Positions 40,930-54,305 of a DNA stretch of 64,000 nucleotides are shown here, piece by piece; within the stretch, counting starts at the first letter, position 1; each line of letters starts with the position of its first letter. Position numbers and translations under genes: made by a program. The notes beneath the pieces were generated by a model. The model had not been told where the DNA came from and did not search any database. It was given only the letters and a program-made list of their open reading frames with translations. The stretch lies in NCBI RefSeq assembly GCF_002080435.1, contig NZ_CP020538.1, forward strand, positions 558,001 through 622,000, written 5' to 3'. This DNA is from Sphingobium herbicidovorans. Lineage in GTDB: Bacteria; Pseudomonadota; Alphaproteobacteria; Sphingomonadales; Sphingomonadaceae.

Positions 40930-42162
40930 TCAGCCAAGTAATAGTTCCAGGGCGGGTGGATGTCCCAGAAAGGCTGCGGGGCTGGCGGACGCTCCATAGG
41001 CCCCTGCGACGAAAATCGCGATCAGGTCGCCTTCGGCCACAGCAGGCAGCGAAACCTTGTCGCCAAGCTTGTCGATGGGCGTGCACAGGCATCCGACGAT
41101 CGTGACAGCCTCCTCGGCGGCGGGCGCGCCATAGCGGTTGGCGACCGCGATCGGATAATTGCGCCGCACCACCGTCCCGAAATTGCCGCTCGCCGCGAGT
41201 TGATGGTGCAACCCCCCATCGACGACCACGAACGTCTCGCCCTTGCTCTGCTTCACGTCGATCACGCGCGTCAGATAAACTCCCGCTTCACCGACTATCC
41301 AGCGGCCGAGTTCAATCGCGAACTTACTTGTCGACAATATGTCCGGCCGCGCATTCATTATCTGCCCCAATGCTTCGCCGATGGGAGCGACATCCAGCCG
41401 TTGGTCGCCGGGGAAATAGGGGATGCCAAAGCCGCCGCCCAAATTCACCAGCGGCGGCGACGCGCCCACCTCGTTCGACAACCGCGCCGCCAGACCGACC
41501 GTCGCCGCCTGCGTATCGATCAGCGCCTCGGCATCGAGGGCTTGCGATCCGGCAAAGATATGCCAGCCGCGCCAGTCCGCCCCGGCGGCGATAAGGGACC
41601 GGGCAAGTGCGGCGGCCCTATCCGCGTCGACGCCGAAGGGCTTGGCCCCGCCCCCCATGCGCATGCCCGATCCTTTGAGGTCGAAATCGGGATTGACCCT
41701 CACTGCAAGGCGAGGAATCCGCCCACGTTTCTCTGCAATGGCGAGCGCCCGTCGCGCTTCGCCCTCCGACTCCAGATTAAGCGTGATTCCCGCATCAATG
41801 GCAGCAACCAGCTCGTCTTCGCGCTTACCCGGCCCAGCAAAGCTGATATGGGCCGCATCCATGCCAGCGGCTAACGCGCGCGCCAATTCACCGCCCGACG
41901 CAACATCGAAACCATCGACCAACCGCACCATCCGTTCGAGCAATCCCGGGTGCGGATTGGCCTTTACAGCGTAGTGGAGCGACAATTCCTTCGGCATGGC
42001 ATCACGCAGGACTTGCAACTGTCGTTCGACAATATTCATGTCATAGACGAACAGCGGCGTATCCCCCGCTTCATCCACCAGGCTAGCCGCGCCACAACCG
42101 CCAATCAGCAGCATGCCCTCCTCGCCTCCAAAAAAAGGCGGAATGGGTCCCATTGGCTTCAT
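40930..42162 (-). CDS. PLP-dependent decarboxylase, XrtA-associated
   Basis: A 410-residue fold-III decarboxylase of the diaminopimelate/ornithine decarboxylase class. The PLP lysine is Lys67 (HYAVKANPHP). The glycine-rich phosphate loop is LVNLGGGFGIPYF, and the catalytic Cys region is IVGCLCTPIDKLG. The version with N-terminal PLFVYD is typical of exosortase A loci. Together with the acyl-CoA ligase (4-bp overlap) and acyl carrier protein it may make an aminoacyl or acyl group for the polysaccharide; the substrate is not known. Confidence 0.92.
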   Translation of the reverse strand: MKPMGPIPPFFGGEEGMLLIGGCGAASLVDEAGDTPLFVYDMNIVERQLQVLRDAMPKELSLHYAVKANPHPGLLERMVRLVDGFDVASGGELARALAAGMDAAHISFAGPGKREDELVAAIDAGITLNLESEGEARRALAIAEKRGRIPRLAVRVNPDFDLKGSGMRMGGGAKPFGVDADRAAALARSLIAAGADWRGWHIFAGSQALDAEALIDTQAATVGLAARLSNEVGASPPLVNLGGGFGIPYFPGDQRLDVAPIGEALGQIMNARPDILSTSKFAIELGRWIVGEAGVYLTRVIDVKQSKGETFVVVDGGLHHQLAASGNFGTVVRRNYPIAVANRYGAPAAEEAVTIVGCLCTPIDKLGDKVSLPAVAEGDLIAIFVAGAYGASASPAAFLGHPPALELLLG

Positions 42163-43691
42163 CGGTCATATTCCTTGGCAAGCGCCACGCGATCAATCTT
42201 GCCATTGGGTGTCCGCGGAAAATCCGCCAGCCTGACTATCCTGCGTGGCTGCATGAAATTTGGCAGCTCGGTCTTCAGCTTGGCTACAACGGCGGCTTCC
42301 GACCCTGCATCGTCCGATCGGATCAGCAACAGCACCGCCTGCCCCAGCCTTTCATCCTTTACCCCCAGCGCAACCGCCTCAGCCACGCCGGGCACGGCCA
42401 CCGCCGCTTCCTCAATTTCGGAAGGACTGATGCGGTTGCCTGAGGATTTGATCATCGCATCGTCGCGGCCGACGAAATAAAGCAGGCCATCCGCATCGCG
42501 CCGCACGCTGTCGCCCGACCACACTGCCACGCCGCCGTAGCGGGACGCCGGGGGTGCTGGCCTGAATCGCTCCGCAGTCCGCGCAGGATCGCGCCAATAG
42601 CCCTGCGCAACCAACGGCCCACAATGCACCAACTCGCCGGTCTCATCATCATCGGTCAGGCTTCCATCCGGGCGAACGACCAATATCTCCGCATGCGGTA
42701 TCGCCGAACCCATGGAATCTGGATGGCTATCCACTTGTTCCGGCGGCAGGTAGGTCGAACGAAACGCCTCCGTCAGTCCATACATGGGATAGACGTCAGC
42801 CTCTGGAAAAAGGCTGCGTAGTTTCGTGACCAGGGGCCGGGTAAGCGCGCCCCCACTGTTAGTCAGGCGCTTCAGTTTGCCGGCGACTTCTGCCTGCCAG
42901 TTCAATTCGGTCAGTTGTATCCAAAGCGGCGGTACGCCCGCCAACGTCGTTATGTCGCGACGGTCCACCGATTTCATGACGTCACGCGGCGTCAGATAGT
43001 CGAGCGGATATACGCACCCGCCGGCGTACCAGCTGGAAAACAGCTGATTCTGACCGTAATCGAAGCTGAAAGGCAGCACGCATAATGTCCTGTCATCAGC
43101 TGTCAGCTTCAAATAGTTCGCCACGGCCGCCGCGCCGAGCCACAGATTCGCGTGGCTCAACATCACGCCCTTGGGACGGCCCGTAGATCCGCTGGTATAT
43201 AGTATCGCCGCCAGATCGTCCGGCCCAGCCGTCGAAGGCGGCATGGCGCCTCCGCCGCTCATGGCGCAAGCTGCGTCATCCTCCCGCAACAGGCGGCATT
43301 CCACTGGCACATCCGCAGGCGCCAGAGTGTCGAGGCGGCCCACCGTCCCTATCAAGAGTTGCGCACCGCTGTCGGCCAATATGTGCGCCACCTGCGCATG
43401 CTTGAGCAATGGATTGACCGGCACATGCACCAGCCCGGCACGCGGCGCGGCGAGCGGCATCAACGCAGCGACGGGGCCTTTGGCGATCCAACTCGCGACT
43501 CGGGCGCCCCTTTCCAGGCCGAAACCCGCCAGCCATTTGGCTAGCCGCCCGAGCGTTTCCTCCAGCTCCGCATAATTTTGCGATCCCGACCGCCCATCAA
43601 GCGCCGGGCGCGCAGGATCCCCTCGCAGCAGCAGATGGTCGATCGGCCGCACTTCCTCTCCGTCGATCAGGGTTGCACCGCTTAACTCCAT
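42159..43691 (-). CDS. AMP-forming acyl-CoA ligase, XrtA-associated
   Basis: A 510-residue ANL-family adenylating enzyme. The P-loop is ILYTSGSTGRPKGVMLSHANL, motif A5 is MYGLTEAFRSTYL, the GELVHCGPLVAQGYW block follows, and the catalytic Lys is in PNGKIDRVAL near the C-terminus. It belongs to the exosortase A-associated branch. It probably activates a carboxylic or amino acid for transfer to the acyl carrier protein encoded divergently. ATG 43691 is taken as start; an in-frame GTG at 43706 lacks a Shine-Dalgarno. It overlaps the decarboxylase gene by 4 bp. Confidence 0.92.
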   Translation of the reverse strand: MELSGATLIDGEEVRPIDHLLLRGDPARPALDGRSGSQNYAELEETLGRLAKWLAGFGLERGARVASWIAKGPVAALMPLAAPRAGLVHVPVNPLLKHAQVAHILADSGAQLLIGTVGRLDTLAPADVPVECRLLREDDAACAMSGGGAMPPSTAGPDDLAAILYTSGSTGRPKGVMLSHANLWLGAAAVANYLKLTADDRTLCVLPFSFDYGQNQLFSSWYAGGCVYPLDYLTPRDVMKSVDRRDITTLAGVPPLWIQLTELNWQAEVAGKLKRLTNSGGALTRPLVTKLRSLFPEADVYPMYGLTEAFRSTYLPPEQVDSHPDSMGSAIPHAEILVVRPDGSLTDDDETGELVHCGPLVAQGYWRDPARTAERFRPAPPASRYGGVAVWSGDSVRRDADGLLYFVGRDDAMIKSSGNRISPSEIEEAAVAVPGVAEAVALGVKDERLGQAVLLLIRSDDAGSEAAVVAKLKTELPNFMQPRRIVRLADFPRTPNGKIDRVALAKEYDR

Positions 43692-43740
43692 TTCCAGACT
43701 TTTCACCTAAGGCAGAGGATGGTGCCGGGGAGATAGTGGT

Positions 43741-44748
43741 TTGCTGGTCACAAGGGAATATAGCACGGTCGCCGATGCCCGAATGGCTCTCTCGGGAAGG
43801 ATGGACCGCGCCTCGACATCGTCCCTCTTCGACCGCATCGACTGGTTCGAATCGCTCCACGGCCACTGCTTCGCGCGTCAGCCTGTCCGCATCCTACAGG
43901 TGATTGAAGGCGCCACGGAGGCGTGGCTGTTTCTTCTTTCACCTTCGTCAGAACGGCAGACAGCGCTCGCCAATTGGTACAGCTTTTCCTGGTCTCCGGT
44001 CTATCTTGGCGACCCAGACGCGCAGACCCGGTGCAGGCTAACGGAAGTCCTGGCCGCCAACCTTATCAAGACATGTCGTCATATCGATCTCTATCCGGTG
44101 GCCGAATGCTCAGGCATGTTGCTCGACGCGTTCCGGCGCAGCGGCTGGTTCGGGGTGCGGCGGTCCATGGGCGGACGCCATTTGCTCGCTCTCAATGGCC
44201 GTGATTTTGCCGCATATTGGGCAGGTCGTCCCGGACGGCTGCGCAATCAGGTACAGCGCAAGGCGCGTACCAGCCGCTTCACCATCGACATTCACCACGA
44301 CCTCACGGACGCGCTCTGGAAGGATTATGTCGCGGTTCATGCCAGCAGTTGGAAGCAACCCGAGCCGGGCCTGTCTTTCCTGCGCGAAATGGCCGCCCGC
44401 GAAGGTGAAGCGGGAACGCTGCGGCTTGGCTTCGCGCGGCTGAATGGACAAGCGGTTGCGACCCAGCTCTGGACAGTCGAAAATGGCACAGCCTTAATTC
44501 ACAAGCTGGCGCATGACCGCGCCTTCGATGGCGGCTCGCCCGGCACGCTGCTGAGCCACGCGATGTTCGCCCACGCCATAGACAGCGACCACGTCCAACT
44601 CATCGATTATGGGACCGGCGATAACAGCTACAAGGCTGAGTGGATGGAGCAGCGCCAGACCCTGTACCGGCTCGACTTCTTCAATCCCCGATTCGCGTCC
44701 ACATGGATTCCCGCCGCAAGAACCGCCATTTCCGCCCTTGTGGGTTAA
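43741..44748 (+). CDS. GNAT/BioF2-like acetyltransferase (CelD/BcsL type)
   Basis: A 335-residue protein with the split GNAT fold of the Acetyltransf_6 family: FDRIDWFESLHGHCF near the start, RNQVQRKARTSRFTIDI in the middle and LIDYGTGDNSYKAEWMEQRQTLYRLDFFNPR near the C-terminus. Such proteins occur with FemAB and acyl carrier genes in exosortase A loci and probably transfer an acyl group to a sugar. The TTG start at 43741 has GGGGAG 10-15 nt upstream; the next in-frame ATG is at 43783. It is divergent from the ligase gene. Confidence 0.82.
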   Translation: MLVTREYSTVADARMALSGRMDRASTSSLFDRIDWFESLHGHCFARQPVRILQVIEGATEAWLFLLSPSSERQTALANWYSFSWSPVYLGDPDAQTRCRLTEVLAANLIKTCRHIDLYPVAECSGMLLDAFRRSGWFGVRRSMGGRHLLALNGRDFAAYWAGRPGRLRNQVQRKARTSRFTIDIHHDLTDALWKDYVAVHASSWKQPEPGLSFLREMAAREGEAGTLRLGFARLNGQAVATQLWTVENGTALIHKLAHDRAFDGGSPGTLLSHAMFAHAIDSDHVQLIDYGTGDNSYKAEWMEQRQTLYRLDFFNPRFASTWIPAARTAISALVG

Positions 44749-44795
44749 AGGCGGAACGACTAGGTAAGCCGCCCATCATGCGGGCGGGAAACTTT

Positions 44796-45068
44796 ATGCC
44801 GGTCGACCGGACAAGCGACGTAACAAACGCGATGCGCGATCTGCTGCGCGACGTGCTGGGACTGGCACAGGACCGCGTCGATTCATTCGATGCAGACACG
44901 CCCCTGTTCGGCGCGCTCCCGGAACTGGATTCCATGGCCGTCGCCACGCTGCTCACCGAAATGGAAGACCGCCTTGGCATCCTGATCGAGGATGACGACA
45001 TCGACGGCGACACATTCGAGACCTTCGGCACGCTGACAGCCTTTGCGGAGACAAAGGTCGGCGACTGA
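44796..45068 (+). CDS. Acyl carrier protein, XrtA-associated
   Basis: A 90-residue phosphopantetheine-binding protein. The attachment serine is Ser46 in PELDSMAVATLL, matching the D-S-x motif. Helix II-IV sequence (LLTEMEDRLGILIEDDDIDGDTFETFGTLTAFA) is acidic as expected. The ATG at 44796 is preferred because a GGGAA purine stretch lies 6 nt upstream; an ATG at 44778 is also possible. It follows the acetyltransferase gene by 47 bp and is probably charged by the nearby ligase. It is distinct from housekeeping AcpP, whose motif is GxDSLDTVEL. Confidence 0.88.
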   Translation: MPVDRTSDVTNAMRDLLRDVLGLAQDRVDSFDADTPLFGALPELDSMAVATLLTEMEDRLGILIEDDDIDGDTFETFGTLTAFAETKVGD

Positions 45069-46264: not shown

Positions 46265-47002
46265 TCAATCCATCACGTTGGGCAGCCCCTCGAACCCCTT
46301 GCGCAGCGTCGCCGACCAACTGTGTGACAGCAGCTGGAATTCCTCATTATCCGCTTCAATCCGTGTACGAACCCGGAAGTCGAACTTGTCCCGCTCGATC
46401 ACGTTGAGGTCCAGCGGCATGCCCACCGACAGGTTGGACCGCAGCGTCGAATCCATGGACACCAGCACAGCCTTCGTCGCATCTTCCAGCGTGGTATCCC
46501 GCTTGATGATGCGGTCCAGGATCGGCTTGCCATATTTATGCTCGCCAATCTGGAAGAAGGGCGTGTCCTCGGTCGCCTCTATGAAATTCCCGGCCGAATA
46601 AATCAGGTATAGGCGCGGCTTGCCGCCACGGCGCTGCCCTGCGACCAGGATCGATGCGTCCGCGCCCGACCCCTGCATCTCGATCGTGCTGCGATAATGG
46701 TGCTGCATCTCACACATCGCATCACCGACCAGTTGCGCGGCCCGGTGCATCGTCGCGCAATTGAGGATGCTTTCAACTTCGGGATCGAATTGTGAATCCT
46801 TGATCGCGCGGCCGAGCTTCGTCTTCACGCCCTGCGTGATTGACAGGTTGCCCGAACACATCAGGACCATCGCCCGCTCACCCGGCACGCTGTAGGTAAA
46901 GCTCTTCCGAAAACGTGCGATATTGTCCATGCCCGCATTGGTGCGGGTGTCCGACAGCATGACCAGTCCCCGGTCTACGCGCACCGCCACACAATAGGTC
47001 AT
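46265..47002 (-). CDS. anbu: Anbu proteasome-related protease
   Basis: Bacterial member of the proteasome/HslV superfamily. The 245-residue protein begins Met-Thr, placing the catalytic nucleophile Thr2 after Met removal (MTYCVAVRVDRGLVMLSDTRTNAGMDNI). Conserved Asp18 and Lys33 match the proteasome active site pattern, and a GSGADASILVAGQ segment follows. Anbu homologues assemble into open-helical or ring structures; their substrates are unknown. It is the last gene of a four-gene operon with a transglutaminase, alpha-E and ATP-grasp protein (gaps of 24, 16 and about 100 bp). Confidence 0.92.
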   Translation of the reverse strand: MTYCVAVRVDRGLVMLSDTRTNAGMDNIARFRKSFTYSVPGERAMVLMCSGNLSITQGVKTKLGRAIKDSQFDPEVESILNCATMHRAAQLVGDAMCEMQHHYRSTIEMQGSGADASILVAGQRRGGKPRLYLIYSAGNFIEATEDTPFFQIGEHKYGKPILDRIIKRDTTLEDATKAVLVSMDSTLRSNLSVGMPLDLNVIERDKFDFRVRTRIEADNEEFQLLSHSWSATLRKGFEGLPNVMD

Positions 47003-47026
47003 CGCCCAGGGGGCTCCTATATTCGT

Positions 47027-47899
47027 TCAACCCTGCGGGATGGATGGCTGAAGGCTTTGTTGCTGCTGCCTTTGCAGCTGCCTTTCTTCCACCCCTTCCT
47101 CCGCCTGCGCGATCCGAACGTCCGCGTCAATCCAGATATCGCCTGCCACAGTCACCGACCCGCGGATTGGTGCAGCGGCATTGGCGTCCAGTCCCGATGC
47201 CAGCCGCAGGTATCGTTCGGTCACGCACACCCGGTTCGACGGGTCGAACCCGACCCAGCCCAGATCAGGCACCAATGCTTCAACCCACGCATGGGTTTCA
47301 TGCAATGCTACGCCGCCCTCCGCCAGTAGGTAGCCCGTGACGTACCGCGCCGCTATGCCCATCGCGCGCGCTCCCGCGATGAATATCTGCGCGTGATCCT
47401 GGCACACGCCCGCCCCCAGTGCGAAAGCTTCCGCAGCCGTGGTGCCCGAATTCGTGACGCCGCTGCGATAGGCCACCGCATCGCTGACCGCCGCCGAGAG
47501 GGAATGGAGGCGCGCCAGCGGGCCGTCTCCATCGGGCAAGGCCAGGGCCATGTTTCGGATCGCTTCCGACATGCGGGTCAGGCGCGTTTCGCGGAGAAAA
47601 TAGGCAGGCGGCACGCCCCCGCCTGTCCACCCCAGCACGCCGTTGGTATCGCAGGTCTCTACCAGCCCCTCAGCGACGATGACCGCATTGTCCAGCTTAT
47701 CGTGGCGGATCCAGACCGCTTCCATCTCGCCAAAGCTGTTGGCGCGAAAGCCATCCACCGGCTCGCCATTCACGCTCACCTGCCATTCCAGCACCTTTTG
47801 CGCGCGCGTGTCAGTAGGCATGAGCTTCAGTCGCATCGCCACACGGCCAGCCGTCGCTGCATAGCGATACATGGTCTGGTGGCGGACCAGCAATTTCAC
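47027..47899 (-). CDS. Transglutaminase-like cysteine protease of the Anbu operon
   Basis: A 290-residue protein. The N-terminal bacterial transglutaminase-associated domain (LLVRHQTMYRYAATAGRVAMRLKLMP) is followed by the papain-like transglutaminase core. The triad is Cys in GAGVCQDHAQIFIAGARAMGI, His in HETHAWVEAL and Asp in GFDPSN. In the ATP-grasp/alpha-E/transglutaminase systems it is proposed to trim or transfer peptides, working opposite to or with the ligase. The GTG start at 47899 is 16 bp after the alpha-E gene. No signal peptide is seen, so it is probably cytoplasmic. Confidence 0.92.
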   Translation of the reverse strand: MKLLVRHQTMYRYAATAGRVAMRLKLMPTDTRAQKVLEWQVSVNGEPVDGFRANSFGEMEAVWIRHDKLDNAVIVAEGLVETCDTNGVLGWTGGGVPPAYFLRETRLTRMSEAIRNMALALPDGDGPLARLHSLSAAVSDAVAYRSGVTNSGTTAAEAFALGAGVCQDHAQIFIAGARAMGIAARYVTGYLLAEGGVALHETHAWVEALVPDLGWVGFDPSNRVCVTERYLRLASGLDANAAAPIRGSVTVAGDIWIDADVRIAQAEEGVEERQLQRQQQQSLQPSIPQG

Positions 47900-47915
47900 G
47901 GTGCGCCTGCCTCCT

Positions 47916-48848
47916 TCAGCCGAAATGGTAGGTTTGGGCGATCTCCGCGCCCAGCTTGTTCGTCATCCGCAATCCGCTCTGCACGGTTTCATGGAGACCC
48001 ACACGGAAAATCTCGCCGCTGTCGAGCTGCTCCAGATGGGCGACCATCTGGAGCACCGTTTCGTGGCAGGTCCCGCGGCTGTTGTGCCACCCGGCCAAGC
48101 GATTCAGGCGATAGGCGAGCTGATCGTAGCAATAGGCGACGCTGCGGGGAAAAAGACGGTTCAGCATCAGGAAGTCGGTGATCTGCCAAGGCGTGTAGGT
48201 GCCACCATATACATGATGATAGGCCCGCGCTCCCGACAACGCATACAGCACCGACGTCCACTGATAATGATCCCGATTGCCCCCGATCACCTCGGTCTCG
48301 GGCAGCAGCACATAATATTTGACGTCCAGCAGTCGCAGCGTCATCTGCGCCCGCTCCAGCGCCGACCCGGCGCGTAGAAAGTCGTGGCCTTCATTGCGCA
48401 ACTGCCCGGAATGCGCCGCCCCGCGAAAGGTCATGACACGGGTCTTCACCCAGTCGATCAGCGCAGGAAGCTGCTGCCGCGCCTCTCCCACGTCATAGCT
48501 GTCCAGCTTGCGCCAGCCCTCATTCAATGCCTCCCACATATCCTGGGTCAGCATGGTGCGGGCCGACTTCGCGTTTGCGCGTGCCTTCAGCAAACAGGAC
48601 CGGATCGAACTGGCATTATCAGGGTCCAGCATCAGGTAGGAAACAGCGTCGCTTTCCGTCACCTGCACGCCTTCGGGGAAGCTGCCGCCGTTGCCCGTCG
48701 CCCGCACCACGGATCGCCACTCATCCCGATGGTGCGCACCGGGCAGTATCGCCATGCGCTGCCCCATGGTCAGCAGGCGGGCCGTCGCCTCGGCCCGCTC
48801 CATGTAGCGCGCCATCCAGAACAGATTCTCAGCGGTCCGGCTCAGCAT
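47916..48848 (-). CDS. Alpha-E domain protein
   Basis: A 310-residue all-helical protein, opening MLSRTAENLFWMARYMERAEATARLL, the conserved alpha-E start, with LRLLDVKYYVLLPETEVIGG and the C-terminal LGAEIAQTYHF. The name comes from its conserved helical core. It is nearly always found with circularly permuted ATP-grasp proteins, sometimes fused to them. It may bind substrates or act as a structural partner; no activity is proven. It lies between the ATP-grasp and transglutaminase genes on the same strand. Confidence 0.92.
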   Translation of the reverse strand: MLSRTAENLFWMARYMERAEATARLLTMGQRMAILPGAHHRDEWRSVVRATGNGGSFPEGVQVTESDAVSYLMLDPDNASSIRSCLLKARANAKSARTMLTQDMWEALNEGWRKLDSYDVGEARQQLPALIDWVKTRVMTFRGAAHSGQLRNEGHDFLRAGSALERAQMTLRLLDVKYYVLLPETEVIGGNRDHYQWTSVLYALSGARAYHHVYGGTYTPWQITDFLMLNRLFPRSVAYCYDQLAYRLNRLAGWHNSRGTCHETVLQMVAHLEQLDSGEIFRVGLHETVQSGLRMTNKLGAEIAQTYHFG

Positions 48849-48953
48849 GCGCCCCTCCTCGCCCCATCATGCGCAGCGCGCCGGAGCCGCACGGACGGTG
48901 ATAGGGGGCGCGCGCTATTCATTTCGATCAATCCTGCAACACCCACGTATCCT

Positions 48954-50336
48954 TCACCCCCCGCCCTGACTGGAGTTCACCACCAGCGACCCTTCGGTCA
49001 GCGCGACACGGGTGAGGCCGCCGGGCACCAGCCGGATCTGCTTGCCGACCAGGCAATAAGGCCGGAAATCTGCATGCCGCCCCACCACGGTCGCCGGACC
49101 CAATGTAGGCACGGTGGAAAGATCAAGCGTCGGTTGCGCGATAAACTCGCCGGGATTGGCCCGGATGCGGTCGGCATAGGCGGCAACCTCGTCTCTGGTC
49201 GACTTGGGTCCGATGAGCATCCCGTAGCCGCCCGACCCATGCACTTCCTTCGCCACCAGTTCGTGCAGATGTTCCAGCACATAGGCGCGTTCGTCGGGCT
49301 TGCTGCATTGCCACGTCTGGATGTTGTCCAGGATAGGCTGCTCGCCCAAATAAAAGCGGATCATTTCCGGTACATAGATATAAACTGCCTTGTCGTCGGC
49401 AATGCCGGCGCCGGGAGCCGACGCCAGCGTCACCCCGCCACTGCGATAGACGTTAAAAATACCTGGAATGCCGAGCATACTGTCCGGACGGAACACCAGC
49501 GGATCGAGATATTCGTCGTCTATCCGGCGATAAATGACGTCCACCTGCTTGGGCCCGAGCGTCGTCTTCATCCAGACGCGATCCTCATCGACAAACAGGT
49601 CCGCAGGCTCAACCAGCTCGATCCCCATCAGGTCGGCCAGGAAGCTATGCTCATAATAGGCGCTGTTGAGCGATCCGGGGGTCAGCAACACGACCACAGG
49701 GTCGCCCTTGCAGGCCGGGGGCGCGACTTCCTTCAGGCTCTTGAGCAACTCGGCCGGATAATCGTCCACCGGCGCCACAAGCCCCTGACCGAACAGTTCG
49801 GGGAACATGCGCGTCATGATCTCGCGATTTTCCAGCATGTAGGACACGCCCGAAGGTGTGCGGCAATTATCCTCCAGCACCTCAAACCGTGAGGGTCCCG
49901 TCCGGACAATATCGATGCCGACGATATGGCTGTAAACCTTTCCTGGCGGAGAAAAGTTAGCCATTTCAGCGAGATATGCGCTATTCTGATAGATGATGTC
50001 GGCAGGCATGATGCCCGCTTTCACGATTTCACCGCGGTGATAGACATCATGCAAAAACGCATTTAATGCCCGCGCCCGCTGGCGGATGCCCCGATCGAGA
50101 ACACGCCACTCCTGCGCGGTGAAGATGCGTGGCAGGAGGTCGAACGGGATCAGCCGTTCCGGGTCCCCACCCTCGCCATAGACGGCAAAAGTTATCCCGA
50201 TCCGGCGGAAAATCGCCTCAGCCTCATCCAATCGACGATTAAGCCCTGCAATGCCTGTCCGCTCTACCCAATTCTGCACTTCCGCATAACAAGGGCGTAT
50301 CGAACCATCGGGCTCAAACATTTCCTGGAAGGGCAA
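48954..50336 (-). CDS. Circularly permuted ATP-grasp type 2 protein, C-terminus altered by a one-base shift
   Basis: A ~460-residue predicted peptide ligase, first gene of the Anbu operon. Family landmarks: EMFEPDGSIRPCYAEVQNWV, FAVYGEGGDPERLIPFDLLPRI, SRFEVLEDNCRTPSGVSYMLENR, VVLLTPGSLNSAYYEHSFLA and the ATP-binding KEVHGSGGYGMLIGPKS. The family normally ends S-S-Q-G-G-G-x-K-D-T-W-V-L. Here the reading stops just after SSQGGG, while one extra G at the tract 48957-48962 would add VKDTWVLQD with a stop at 48928. TTG 50336 is preferred as start: AGGGAGG lies about 8 nt before it and it matches family N-termini. An ATG at 50375 is possible. Confidence 0.9.
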   Translation of the reverse strand: MPFQEMFEPDGSIRPCYAEVQNWVERTGIAGLNRRLDEAEAIFRRIGITFAVYGEGGDPERLIPFDLLPRIFTAQEWRVLDRGIRQRARALNAFLHDVYHRGEIVKAGIMPADIIYQNSAYLAEMANFSPPGKVYSHIVGIDIVRTGPSRFEVLEDNCRTPSGVSYMLENREIMTRMFPELFGQGLVAPVDDYPAELLKSLKEVAPPACKGDPVVVLLTPGSLNSAYYEHSFLADLMGIELVEPADLFVDEDRVWMKTTLGPKQVDVIYRRIDDEYLDPLVFRPDSMLGIPGIFNVYRSGGVTLASAPGAGIADDKAVYIYVPEMIRFYLGEQPILDNIQTWQCSKPDERAYVLEHLHELVAKEVHGSGGYGMLIGPKSTRDEVAAYADRIRANPGEFIAQPTLDLSTVPTLGPATVVGRHADFRPYCLVGKQIRLVPGGLTRVALTEGSLVVNSSQGGG

Positions 50337-50508
50337 AGCGTCAATCCTCCCTCGGGGGCATCCCCGGTTGTGCATTGCAGCATTAGTGCAATGTGACGGA
50401 ACGATTGCAAGCGCAAAAGACGATCTACGGTTGCTGCAGGCATCTTTTTCGGCGGTGCGGCTATCTTGAGCATGGAAAGAGATTTTGCGTGCGATCCTCC
50501 AAACCCCG

Positions 50509-50577: not shown

Positions 50578-50654
50578 GGCGGAGTAGCTCAGCTGGTTAG
50601 AGCAGCGGAATCATAATCCGCGTGTCGGGGGTTCAAGTCCCTCCTCCGCTACCA
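50578..50654 (+). tRNA. tRNA-Met (CAT anticodon)
   Basis: A 77-nt cloverleaf with acceptor stem GGCGGAG paired to CTCCGCT (G-T at the first pair), D-arm AGCTCAGCTGGTTAGAGC, anticodon stem GCGGA/TCCGC with loop ATCATAA (anticodon CAT at 34-36), T-arm GGGGGTTCAAGTCCCTC, and an encoded CCA end. The CAT anticodon could also belong to tRNA-Ile2 with lysidine, but the body resembles alphaproteobacterial elongator Met tRNA. It is read towards the IS66 insertion, whose left end is 75 bp downstream. Confidence 0.95.
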
Positions 50655-51107: not shown

Positions 51108-52352
51108 ATGAAGTCTGATCTATTGCAGCCGGGTCCGCGCCGCTGGCTGACGAACAGTGTCTTTTCGTCCGTGGAGGAGGAGTATGTCTCTTATCTTCGA
51201 GCGGGCCGATATCATCCGCACACAGTGCGAGTGTATTTTGCTTGCGTCGCGCATTTCGCGAAGTGGACGACCGAGGAAGGCTTGGACATCGCGCTGATCG
51301 ATGAGGCGGCGCAATGGAGGTTCCTGGATACCCATGTGCCGTCTTGCGATTGCCCTTACCCGGTCCGCAAGGTGCACCACGAGTTGCGCGTGGCTATCCG
51401 GCACCTTCTGCGTGTGCTTCGTGCCCAAAGGCGGATTGCGGCGATCGAACAGAGGGGCTGGCTCGATGGTGAACTGGCGGCCTTCGATCGCTACATGCGC
51501 GATGTCGGTGGCCTGGCGGACACAACGCGGCGGCAGCGGATCCATATCATTCGCCGGCTGCTCCTTGAGCGGTTCGGTGATGGCGAGATTGATCCTGAGA
51601 AGCTCGACCCGGCAGTCGTCCGGCGCTTTGTCATCGGCGAAGGCCGTTGTTGGAGTAGTGGCGCCGTGCGTGTCGCTGGCGGCACAGTTGGATGTTATTT
51701 CAAGTTTCGCAAGATGTTGGGCGATGATGTCGGTCGGCTCTTGCAGGCGATTCCGCGGGCCGCGCATTGGCGCCTGGCGGAGTTGCCCGACGTGTTGTCG
51801 CCAACCCAGATTGACGAGGTTCTCGCGTCATTCGACGATCATCTGCCCTCACGGCGGCGCGCTTACGCAATGGTCAGATGCGTCACCGATCTCGGGCTAC
51901 GATGTTCCGAGGTCGTAAAACTTCGCCTCGACGACGTCGATTGGCGCAACGGGATCATTCGTATAGCCAGGACCAAGACGCATTTCACCGACAGCCTTCC
52001 ATTGCCGGTGGCCACCGGCGACGCCATCGCAGACTATTTGCGCCATGAGCGGCCGAAGACCAGTAACCGTGCGATTTTCGTTCGCCATGTAGCGCCGTAT
52101 GACGTCCCGATCAGGGCGGGCGTCGCCAAGCATGCGGTGATCGCGGCTTTCGCACGATGCGGATTGGATCGGACTGATCCCCACATCCTTCGTCACAGCA
52201 TCGCGAGCCGCCTGCTCAGCGACGGCACGCCCATGAAGCACATCGCCGATATCCTGCGTCACCGTAGCCTCGACACGTCGAAGATTTACACCAAGATCGA
52301 TCTCCGTCGGCTGTCGGCCGTGGCCATGCCCTGGCCAGGGAGGGCCTCATGA
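51108..52352 (+). CDS. RIT tyrosine recombinase A
   Basis: A 414-residue integrase/recombinase, the first and longest of the trio. The N-terminal SAM-like DNA-binding domain (VEEEYVSYLRAGRYHPHTVRVYFACVAHFAKW) contains the core-binding helices. Catalytic residues are Arg in DLGLRCSEVVKLRL, Lys in RTKTHFTDSLPLPV, H-x-x-R in HILRHSIASRLLSDGT, His in ILRHRSLDTSK and the nucleophile Tyr in KIYTKIDL. Strong Shine-Dalgarno GGAGAGGAG, possibly occluded by a hairpin. The stop overlaps the next start (ATGATG). Confidence 0.93.
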   Translation: MKSDLLQPGPRRWLTNSVFSSVEEEYVSYLRAGRYHPHTVRVYFACVAHFAKWTTEEGLDIALIDEAAQWRFLDTHVPSCDCPYPVRKVHHELRVAIRHLLRVLRAQRRIAAIEQRGWLDGELAAFDRYMRDVGGLADTTRRQRIHIIRRLLLERFGDGEIDPEKLDPAVVRRFVIGEGRCWSSGAVRVAGGTVGCYFKFRKMLGDDVGRLLQAIPRAAHWRLAELPDVLSPTQIDEVLASFDDHLPSRRRAYAMVRCVTDLGLRCSEVVKLRLDDVDWRNGIIRIARTKTHFTDSLPLPVATGDAIADYLRHERPKTSNRAIFVRHVAPYDVPIRAGVAKHAVIAAFARCGLDRTDPHILRHSIASRLLSDGTPMKHIADILRHRSLDTSKIYTKIDLRRLSAVAMPWPGRAS

Positions 52353-53305
52353 TGTCGATTACCATGACAGCGCAGGTAGAGGCCTACCTTGCCGAGCGTA
52401 CATCGCTGGGCTTCCGTGGAGATGGGCCGAACGCCAGCCAGCTTCGATCCTTCGGCAGTTTCTTCGATAGTTCTGGCCACCAGGGTTCGCTGACATCGGA
52501 CCTAGCCATTGAGTGGGCAAAGGGGCATGCGCGAGGCAGTGAACCGCGAGCGTGGGCGCGCCGGCTCGACATACTTCGGCCTTTCGCCGCCTACCTTCTG
52601 CGGGAAGATCCGGCCACTGAGTTCCCGCAGGCCCAGATATTCGGCAGGTCCCAGCGCAGGGCCACGCCCCATATCTACACTGAGGACGAGATCTCGGCGT
52701 TGCTTGCAGCGGCACGTCGCCTCGACCCAGAAGGTGGCCTGCGGCCTGCTGCGTTCGAAGCCTTTTATGGACTGATTGCCGCAACCGGCCTGCGCGTTTC
52801 CGAAGCGATCAAGCTGCGCTGCGCCGATGTGGACCTCGGAAGTCGATGTTTGACGGTCCGGATGACGAAGTTCAGCAAATCGCGGCATGTGCCGCTCCAC
52901 GCCACCGTCGCCGTTGCGCTCGCCGACTATCTTGGCATGCGGGACCGCTTCCTGCCACGCGTGGCTGAGGATCCATTTTTCGTCTCGACCCCATCACGAT
53001 CGCTAAAAAAGCGTGCGGTACATTGGACATTCCAGAAGTTGCGCGACGAAGCCGCCATCGTTGCCCGCGGTGCCTATCGCAACGTTCGCATCCATGACCT
53101 CCGGCACACATTTATCTGCAGGCGCATTCAACGGTGGCAAGCTGAGGGTGTCGATATCGACAATGCGATCGCGGCCCTCTCAACCTACGTCGGTCATGCA
53201 AAGGTGTCAGACACCTACTGGTATTTGACCGGCATCCCGGATTTGATGGCCACCGCAGGCAACCGCTTCGAGAGTTTTGCTTTCGGGGAGGCGGTTCATG
53301 ACTGA
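52349..53305 (+). CDS. RIT tyrosine recombinase B
   Basis: A 318-residue tyrosine recombinase. The N-terminal helical domain (TAQVEAYLAERTSLGFRGDGPNASQLRSFGSFF) is followed by the catalytic domain: Arg in AATGLRVSEAIKLR, Lys in MTKFSKSRHVPLH, H-x-x-R in IHDLRHTFICRR, His in YVGHAKVSDT and Tyr in YWYLTGI. Its start overlaps recombinase A by 4 bp and its stop overlaps recombinase C by 8 bp, so the three proteins are probably made in fixed ratio. Confidence 0.93.
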   Translation: MMSITMTAQVEAYLAERTSLGFRGDGPNASQLRSFGSFFDSSGHQGSLTSDLAIEWAKGHARGSEPRAWARRLDILRPFAAYLLREDPATEFPQAQIFGRSQRRATPHIYTEDEISALLAAARRLDPEGGLRPAAFEAFYGLIAATGLRVSEAIKLRCADVDLGSRCLTVRMTKFSKSRHVPLHATVAVALADYLGMRDRFLPRVAEDPFFVSTPSRSLKKRAVHWTFQKLRDEAAIVARGAYRNVRIHDLRHTFICRRIQRWQAEGVDIDNAIAALSTYVGHAKVSDTYWYLTGIPDLMATAGNRFESFAFGEAVHD

Positions 53306-54305
53306 CCGTACCCCTCCAACATTGCCGACGCTCGTCCAGCGCTTCTTTCTGGATCATCTCGGTGAGCAGCGCGCGGTCAGCGCTCAGACCGTAGCGGCAT
53401 ATCGGGATACCTTGCGCCTGCTCCTCAACTACGCGGCCGTGGCACTCCATCGAACGCCCAGCGCTATCACGTTGCCCGATCTCGACGCGCCGTTGTTGCT
53501 CGCCTTTCTCGACCATCTCGAGAAGGATCGAGGCAACAGCGTTCGAAGCCGCAACGCACGTCTCGCCGCGATCAGGACGTTCCTTAAATATGCATCGCAT
53601 CACGACCTTGCGTCGCTAGCAACGATAGAACGGGCGCTGGCAATCCCCTTCAAGCGATTTGATCGATCAATGGTCGGGTTTTTGTCACGGCCCGAGATCA
53701 GCGCCATTCTCGACGCACCTGACCGGCTTAGCTGGGCTGGACACCGCGACCGCGCCTTGTTCAGCATGATGTACAACACGGGCGCCCGCGTTTCCGAGAT
53801 GATCGGCATGCGGTGCCGGGACGTTGTGCTTGAAGGTCAGCCCGCCGTGCATCTGCGTGGCAAGGGCCGCAAAGAACGCAGCGTGCCGCTCTGGCGTCTG
53901 ACTGCCGCGCTCATCAGGTCCTGGCGCCGCCAGATCGGCGATCCCTCTGGGGATAGTTTCCTGTTTCCGAACCGAAGCGGCGGCCGCATGACCCGCTCGA
54001 ACCTCACTCAGCGCTTGAACCTTGCCGTTGTGACCGCAGGTCGCAAGAATCCAAGTCTCCTTGACCGCCCGATCACACCCCATACGGTTCGGCACACAAC
54101 AGCGATGCACCTGCTTCAATCGGGCGTCGATATCACCGTCATCGCCCTGTGGCTCGGTCATGAAGATACGGCCACGACGCATATGTACGTCGAAGCCGAT
54201 CTCGCGATGAAGGAACAGGCTCTGATGAAGCTGCAACCAAGCGCCGCCGCGCCGGGCCGCTTCCGAGCCTCGGACAATCTGATGAGCTTCCTGCAGTCGC
54301 TGTGA
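53298..54305 (+). CDS. RIT tyrosine recombinase C
   Basis: A 335-residue tyrosine recombinase, the third of the trio. Its N-terminal domain reads LVQRFFLDHLGEQRAVSAQTVAAYRDTLRLLL. Catalytic residues: Arg in NTGARVSEMIGMRC, Lys in KGRKERSVPLW, H-x-x-R in HTVRHTTAMHLL, His in WLGHEDTATT and Tyr in HMYVEADL, all in the XerC/D-like order. ATG 53298 was chosen; a longer TTG reading overlaps recombinase B by 29 bp. A 42-bp gap separates the stop from the right terminal repeat. Confidence 0.93.
   Translation: MTDRTPPTLPTLVQRFFLDHLGEQRAVSAQTVAAYRDTLRLLLNYAAVALHRTPSAITLPDLDAPLLLAFLDHLEKDRGNSVRSRNARLAAIRTFLKYASHHDLASLATIERALAIPFKRFDRSMVGFLSRPEISAILDAPDRLSWAGHRDRALFSMMYNTGARVSEMIGMRCRDVVLEGQPAVHLRGKGRKERSVPLWRLTAALIRSWRRQIGDPSGDSFLFPNRSGGRMTRSNLTQRLNLAVVTAGRKNPSLLDRPITPHTVRHTTAMHLLQSGVDITVIALWLGHEDTATTHMYVEADLAMKEQALMKLQPSAAAPGRFRASDNLMSFLQSL

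Follow-up and report, generated by a model that had tools for sequence, protein, structure and literature searches.

The operon of Anbu, a relative of the proteasome beta subunit, was reportedly treated by Iyer et al. in 2009, a work known here through the papers that cite it. Passages of two studies report that the ATP-grasp protein encoded with Anbu in Yersinia bercovieri releases phosphate from ATP, that neither peptidase or amidase activity of Anbu nor stable complexes between the operon proteins were detected (PMC6376114), and that co-expression in Escherichia coli or pull-down yielded no function for Anbu (PMC6376114, PMC5666114), with protein degradation favoured over peptide synthesis in one of them (PMC5666114). 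Regulation has been approached from the side of nitrogen: a DUF403/404/407/transglutaminase cluster of Burkholderia cenocepacia is described as requiring NtrC and sigma-54 (passages of PMC5491218), and Anbu is up in nitrogen-limited Pseudomonas putida, as cited in passages of PMC6376114 and PMC5666114. Here, we describe an Anbu operon of Sphingobium herbicidovorans, located at 46265-50336 on the minus strand of a 64,000-nucleotide stretch of contig NZ_CP020538.1 (positions 558,001 to 622,000, hereafter the window), at whose promoter lies a box resembling the binding site of PhaR, a regulator that senses the carbon store polyhydroxybutyrate.

As an operon of a known kind it is ordinary, apart from one gene that is broken in this assembly. 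Such operons have already been described and are common: Anbu is present in 99 of 119 genomes of Sphingomonadaceae, and 156 of 299 across the Pseudomonadota encode Alpha-E. Judging by sequence comparison, its expression in the Sphingomonadaceae is probably tied to carbon storage through PhaR, with remodelling of peptides or proteins as its proposed task. By the available literature, the data suggest that this PhaR-like control in the host family is the new part, since titles, abstract openings and passages of the open-licence literature revealed no link between PhaR and Anbu.

The four open reading frames (ORFs) follow one another in one orientation. The first encodes a circularly permuted ATP-grasp protein (CP_ATPgrasp_2, 48954-50336, minus strand, Pfam E 1.1e-158), the frame of which ends early in this assembly, followed on the same strand by a 310-aa Alpha-E protein (47916-48848, Pfam E 5.7e-87), a 290-aa transglutaminase-like cysteine enzyme (47027-47899, Transglut_core 2.2e-20, Bact_transglu_N 2.6e-10), and the 245-aa Anbu (46265-47002, Pfam Proteasome E 9.8e-08). 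A search of the genome for further Alpha-E or CP_ATPgrasp_2 copies returned one match to each, as expected of a single-copy operon. Comparison with solved sequences excludes chance for two of the identities, given E-values of 2e-76 to 2e-58 for Anbu against five Anbu/peptidase sequences and of 5.6e-182 for the ATP-grasp protein against 3n6x. The transglutaminase-like protein aligns to 3isr and 6g49 across its catalytic part and carries the motifs GVCQDH, THAWVE, and GFDPS, which place Cys166, His203, and Asp219 in what we take to be its catalytic triad. Anbu retains Thr2, Asp18, and Lys33, the counterparts of Thr1, Asp17, and Lys32 named in a passage of PMC6376114. An earlier note on this DNA had claimed four members in one orientation, which the ORF coordinates and Pfam matches confirm, and active-site residues in the transglutaminase and Anbu, where the motif residues are indeed present; its description of the system as proposed by comparative genomics, with substrate and role undescribed, agrees with the passages of PMC6376114 and PMC5666114.

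A PhaR-like box at the operon promoter

Alignment of 53 Sphingobium-type upstream regions revealed a short conserved island directly behind a promoter-like pair, which in the window consists of TTGCAA (50410-50405) and ACTAAT (50387-50382) separated by a 17-nt spacer (50382-50410, minus strand). This pair is a putative promoter, since a scan with the sigma-70 consensus did not find it. Just downstream lies the PhaR-like box TGCAATGCACAA (50368-50379, minus strand), which fits the consensus TGCRNYGCASMA deduced for PhaR from footprints in Bradyrhizobium diazoefficiens (passages of PMC6201568). The ATP-grasp gene is taken to start at a TTG codon preceded by GGAGG at 50350-50346, in preference to a longer ORF beginning with ATG at 50375, since that ATG falls within the box and the promoter-like conserved stretch. 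A tRNA-Met gene (cat) is located just upstream of the operon promoter at 50578-50654, and the same tRNA sequence stands upstream in some Sphingobium loci (L037, L040, and L042).

Within 330 bp upstream, the strict consensus occurs in 52 of the 53 Sphingobium-type loci at the same place (the exception being L044), with substitutions confined to the degenerate positions. All 24 loci taken from Rhizobiaceae, Rhodobacterales, and other groups lack it, and shuffled sequence gives a mean of 0.22 per 77 loci. A matrix built from 15 Sinorhizobium meliloti PhaR sites marked as efficiently bound in passages of PMC12542648, against which the window's box scores 17.3, was then applied to 120 bp upstream (130 bp for 40 other Alphaproteobacteria and 20 Beta/Gammaproteobacteria), leaving out loci without usable upstream sequence (2 of 56 Sphingobium-type and 10 of 95 other Sphingomonadaceae). 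A score of at least 9 was reached upstream of the ATP-grasp gene in all 54 Sphingobium-type loci (dinucleotide-shuffle mean 2.9), and upstream of the control genes Alpha-E, transglutaminase, Anbu, and trxB in 0/53, 2/53, 0/56, and 0/41, respectively. The same score was obtained for 38 of 85 other Sphingomonadaceae loci, a count that excludes L123 from the genus of the window (shuffled 1.4, reversed 1; controls Alpha-E 0/84, transglutaminase 0/83, Anbu 2/85). Outside the family it was found in 1 of 24 loci of the Rhizobiaceae/Rhodobacterales set upstream of ATP-grasp and in 2 of 24 upstream of Alpha-E, in 1 of the 40 other Alphaproteobacteria, and in 1 of the 20 Beta/Gammaproteobacteria. Raising the cut-off to 11.6, the lowest score of a training site, left 42/54 Sphingobium-type and 26/85 other Sphingomonadaceae loci, together with 0/24, 0/40, and 1/20 in these three outer sets; thresholds of 8, 9, and 10 were computed first, and 11.6 and 12 later.

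The distribution of the box follows the host rather than the operon. A quick maximum-likelihood tree was computed from 119 ATP-grasp proteins, and on it the operons of Sphingomonadaceae split into several lineages: the Sphingobium-type lineage sits beside operons of Rhizobiaceae and Albimonas, and a second and a third lie among other Alphaproteobacteria, with one stray row (L124). A single Sphingomonadaceae clade is rejected by the approximately unbiased (AU) test (p-AU 5.1e-5), and the box therefore tracks the host family and not operon ancestry. Boxes are present in 16/16, 10/26, and 9/16 rows of the three Sphingomonadaceae lineages, and in 0/50 rows of other Alphaproteobacteria and 0/9 of Beta/Gammaproteobacteria, with at least 11 changes of box state on the tree. 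The sample comprised every second locus of the other Sphingomonadaceae and of the Beta/Gammaproteobacteria and 15 of the 56 Sphingobium-type loci plus the window, after removal of seven long-branch rows (L299, L316, L275, L294, L111, L105, and L196). The simplest reading is that host lineages acquired the box on separately inherited operons.

A regulator for such a box is at hand in most of these genomes. The genome of the window encodes one PhaR, with PF07879 and PF05233 in a single ORF, and PhaR is present in 114 of the 119 family genomes. In the proposed mechanism, PhaR would sit on the box at the transcription start and block the operon while polyhydroxybutyrate (PHB) is scarce, and would be drawn off, turning the operon on, when PHB granules accumulate because carbon exceeds nitrogen. 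Binding, repression, and relief are predictions from the box, and the chemistry is likewise one that we infer: the ATP-grasp protein, probably with Alpha-E as its partner, would activate a carboxylate with ATP and join it in an amide or peptide bond; cutting or trimming of amide bonds would fall to the transglutaminase-like enzyme and Anbu, and the set as a whole would remodel peptides or proteins when nitrogen is short.

In many other Pseudomonadota, sigma-54 promoters appear to lead to the same physiological state. With a GG/GC -24/-12 element matching the consensus at 9 or more of its 11 bases required within 160 bp upstream of the first gene, sigma-54-like sites were detected in 13 of the 40 other Alphaproteobacteria, where dinucleotide shuffling gave a mean of 0.73, and in 9 of the 20 Beta/Gammaproteobacteria (shuffle mean 0.43), as compared with 1/85 other Sphingomonadaceae, 4/54 Sphingobium-type, and 0/24 Rhizobiaceae/Rhodobacterales loci. 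Loss of rpoN does not account for the missing sites in the family, for PF04552 is found in 118 of 119 genomes. PHB builds up under carbon excess (PMC12542648), and PhaR and sigma-54 control would plausibly both report an excess of carbon over nitrogen. Nine of 11 consensus bases are also reached upstream of Anbu in 18 of 56 Sphingobium-type loci (10 bases in 1/56), in stretches within or adjoining the transglutaminase coding sequence.

If the link to PhaR is true, it names a growth state, rich in PHB and poor in nitrogen, and a regulator, so that the substrates of the system can be sought there, and PhaR-like control makes the operating condition of the Anbu operon directly testable. The occurrence of the box on separate operon lineages in one host family, if true, would mean that the host rewires acquired operons to one sensor. 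A far more speculative extension, which we regard as quite improbable, is that the Anbu system serves nitrogen economy in cells rich in carbon and poor in nitrogen. Its separately inherited operons would then have come under PhaR at least three independent times in the Sphingomonadaceae, and its targets may be proteins of the PHB granule or a reserve of peptide nitrogen that is built up and broken down during PHB storage.

Alternative readings

One alternative takes Anbu as a stand-alone protease-like particle for protein turnover, with the co-transcribed ligase genes acting on something else. Passages of PMC5666114 argue for degradation, and the absence of stable complexes noted in PMC6376114 points the same way. 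Among the 99 genomes with Anbu, at least four (G075, G107, G052, and G053) match neither Alpha-E nor CP_ATPgrasp_2, their Anbu-only loci (L074, L122 (G075), L250 (G107), L251 (G052), and L252 (G053)) keep the Thr, Asp, and Lys, and Alpha-E occurs in four of ten Anbu-less genomes examined. As genomes with Anbu but no Alpha-E and with Alpha-E but no Anbu both exist, the parts of the operon are separable. These genomes weaken the notion, carried by the earlier note, that the ligase pair feeds its products to Anbu for processing. Opposed to a stand-alone Anbu is the gene order, which in 86 of 100 loci from family genomes runs from ATP-grasp through Alpha-E and transglutaminase to Anbu on a single strand, the other 14 consisting of 11 Anbu-only loci (among them second copies and duplicates from loci fetched twice), two without a detectable transglutaminase, and one cut by a contig end. 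On balance, independence of Anbu from its neighbours is a possibility of lesser likelihood.

A gene for an aminoacyl-tRNA-protein transferase (ATE) is found next to Anbu or the Alpha-E cluster, or no more than a few kb away, in L250, L252, L332, L335, L342, L037, L256, and L275. These cases include two genomes with Anbu and without the ligase genes, and L275 is an ATP-grasp/Alpha-E pair without Anbu. The ATE neighbours represent perhaps three independent cases, and a link to the N-degron pathway is possible.

A second alternative, decay of the system in this strain, starts from the ATP-grasp gene, on account of which the four-gene set could not be confirmed as intact. Its frame is lost by a shift in a G-run (48957-48962, minus strand), identified from the DNA and by comparison with relatives, and the protein stops at ...SSQGGG. 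The window assembly encodes no full-length ATP-grasp with the C-terminal SSQGGGxKD motif. In contrast, the C-terminal K[DN][ST] is read in frame by 255 of the 256 relative loci with a match extending to the C-terminal end (229 of 230 once identical sequences are merged), so intact copies exist in relatives, and 3n6x carries the same end, ...SSQGGGTKDTWILKD. The same count rules out a programmed frameshift. The lesion may be an assembly error or a real mutation, in which latter case the ATP-grasp of this strain may be non-functional. In favour of decay, the frame is lost ahead of a motif that all but one of these relatives keep. Against it, G-runs such as the one that holds the lesion are a frequent place of assembly errors, no break occurs in any of the other three ORFs, and the promoter box is intact. 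Decay is thus rather doubtful.

A third alternative leaves PhaR out of control and regards the box as a core-promoter element or as bound by a different regulator whose palindrome is similar. The box lies directly behind a -10-like element, and because it overlaps the promoter, its conservation may in part be promoter conservation. Two box-bearing genomes (G017 and G116, boxes scoring 17.7 each) have no PF07879 match; with assemblies 96% and 97% complete, they count against PhaR control unless the assemblies miss the gene. The genome of the window contains eight exact TTGCRNYGCACAA sites, only one of which, that of the phasin gene, lies at a PHB gene, and the pattern alone is therefore not specific. 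Against this alternative, the box matches sites for which footprints or gel shifts with PhaR are reported from two other genera (passages of PMC6201568 and PMC12542648), the only PF09361 phasin gene found in the same genome, phasin being an accepted PhaR target, carries two PhaR-like boxes directly upstream, and the box recurs on separate operon lineages at differing distances from the start codon. Taken together, a box that has nothing to do with PhaR appears unlikely.

Besides the phasin count, the promoter overlap, and the two genomes without a PF07879 match, several further points weigh against PhaR control with a nitrogen-related role. The 54 Sphingobium-type loci belong to one genus and are not independent, and 47 of the 85 other Sphingomonadaceae loci score below 9. 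PF07879 was found in 40 of 40 other Alphaproteobacteria sampled, one of which has the box; absence of PhaR is thereby ruled out as the cause of the missing boxes, and PhaR control of the operon is not general. The tree is subsampled, and the dropped rows include L294, a locus from outside the family with a box score of 11.0; as L307 (11.8) and L096 (9.7) also fell outside the sample, the zero counts depend on it. The bridge from sigma-54 to nitrogen is itself conjectural because sigma-54 has activators besides NtrC. With these points weighed, PhaR-linked expression of a standard Anbu operon is still the reading preferred here. Sigma-54 control of the window operon, the first guess, was ruled out by a score of 6/11.

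Alpha-E and the genes around the operon

Comparison of Alpha-E with PDB sequences gave no significant match (best E 0.28). Its predicted model, built from a 32-sequence alignment, is all helical with a mean predicted local distance difference test (pLDDT) score of 88.9, and a PDB fold search with the model retrieved no convincing relative, a result that does not show a new fold. Across 42 diverse sequences, Met1-Leu2 and several Arg and Glu residues are invariant, and the N-terminus looks as if it were functional, judging by this invariant start.

The gene trxB, said in the earlier note to follow directly, begins about 170 bp after Anbu in the window, and a longer TTG ORF at 46319 is probably over-extended. 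Of the 56 Sphingobium-type loci, 41 carry trxB, with gaps ranging from 76 to 4692 bp; among the remaining 15, downstream sequence extends for 8 kb in 11, and four lie on contigs that end early. In other Sphingomonadaceae, it was found in none of the 23 wide loci examined, one of which spans just 1.1 kb. Membership of trxB in the system was accordingly ruled out, leaving it as a local neighbour.

Adjoining trxB at 42159-45068 are genes for an exosortase-A-associated acyl-CoA ligase (TIGR03098), a GNAT-like protein, and an acyl carrier protein. They probably form the border of an exosortase/PEP-CTERM cluster that many Sphingobium loci retain. At 51108-54305, three tyrosine recombinase genes succeed one another on the plus strand, overlapping or almost overlapping, and form a recombinase-trio element; next to it is a short stretch that we take to resemble an IS66 transposase end.

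Comparison with described systems

The closest described relatives are the Anbu operons of Y. bercovieri, P. aeruginosa and others (passages of PMC6376114 and PMC5666114), which share with the window the same four families in the same order, the same candidate Thr, Asp, and Lys in Anbu, and the lack of an AAA+ ATPase among the four genes. The window differs in its broken ATP-grasp frame and in its PhaR-like promoter box, of which the passages of these two papers make no mention. The cluster I35_5080-83 of B. cenocepacia H111 (DUF404/407-DUF403-transglutaminase) combines the same ATP-grasp, Alpha-E, and transglutaminase families, but the transglutaminase-domain protein is large, no Anbu is named in the passages of PMC5491218, and the cluster is under NtrC/sigma-54, unlike the window promoter.

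With regard to control, the nearest parallel is the PhaR/AniA regulon of S. meliloti and B. diazoefficiens. The main text of PMC12542648 does not mention transglutaminase, proteasome, or alpha-E, and PMC6201568 and PMC10888616 do not mention transglutaminase, ATP-grasp, or proteasome. An ATP-grasp protein of S. meliloti, SMb21227, does appear in a list of proteins affected by PhaR. The window shares its box sequence with this regulon (passages of PMC12542648, PMC6201568, and PMC10888616), and its box lies between the -10-like element and the predicted transcription start, which is reminiscent of SMa1961 of S. meliloti.

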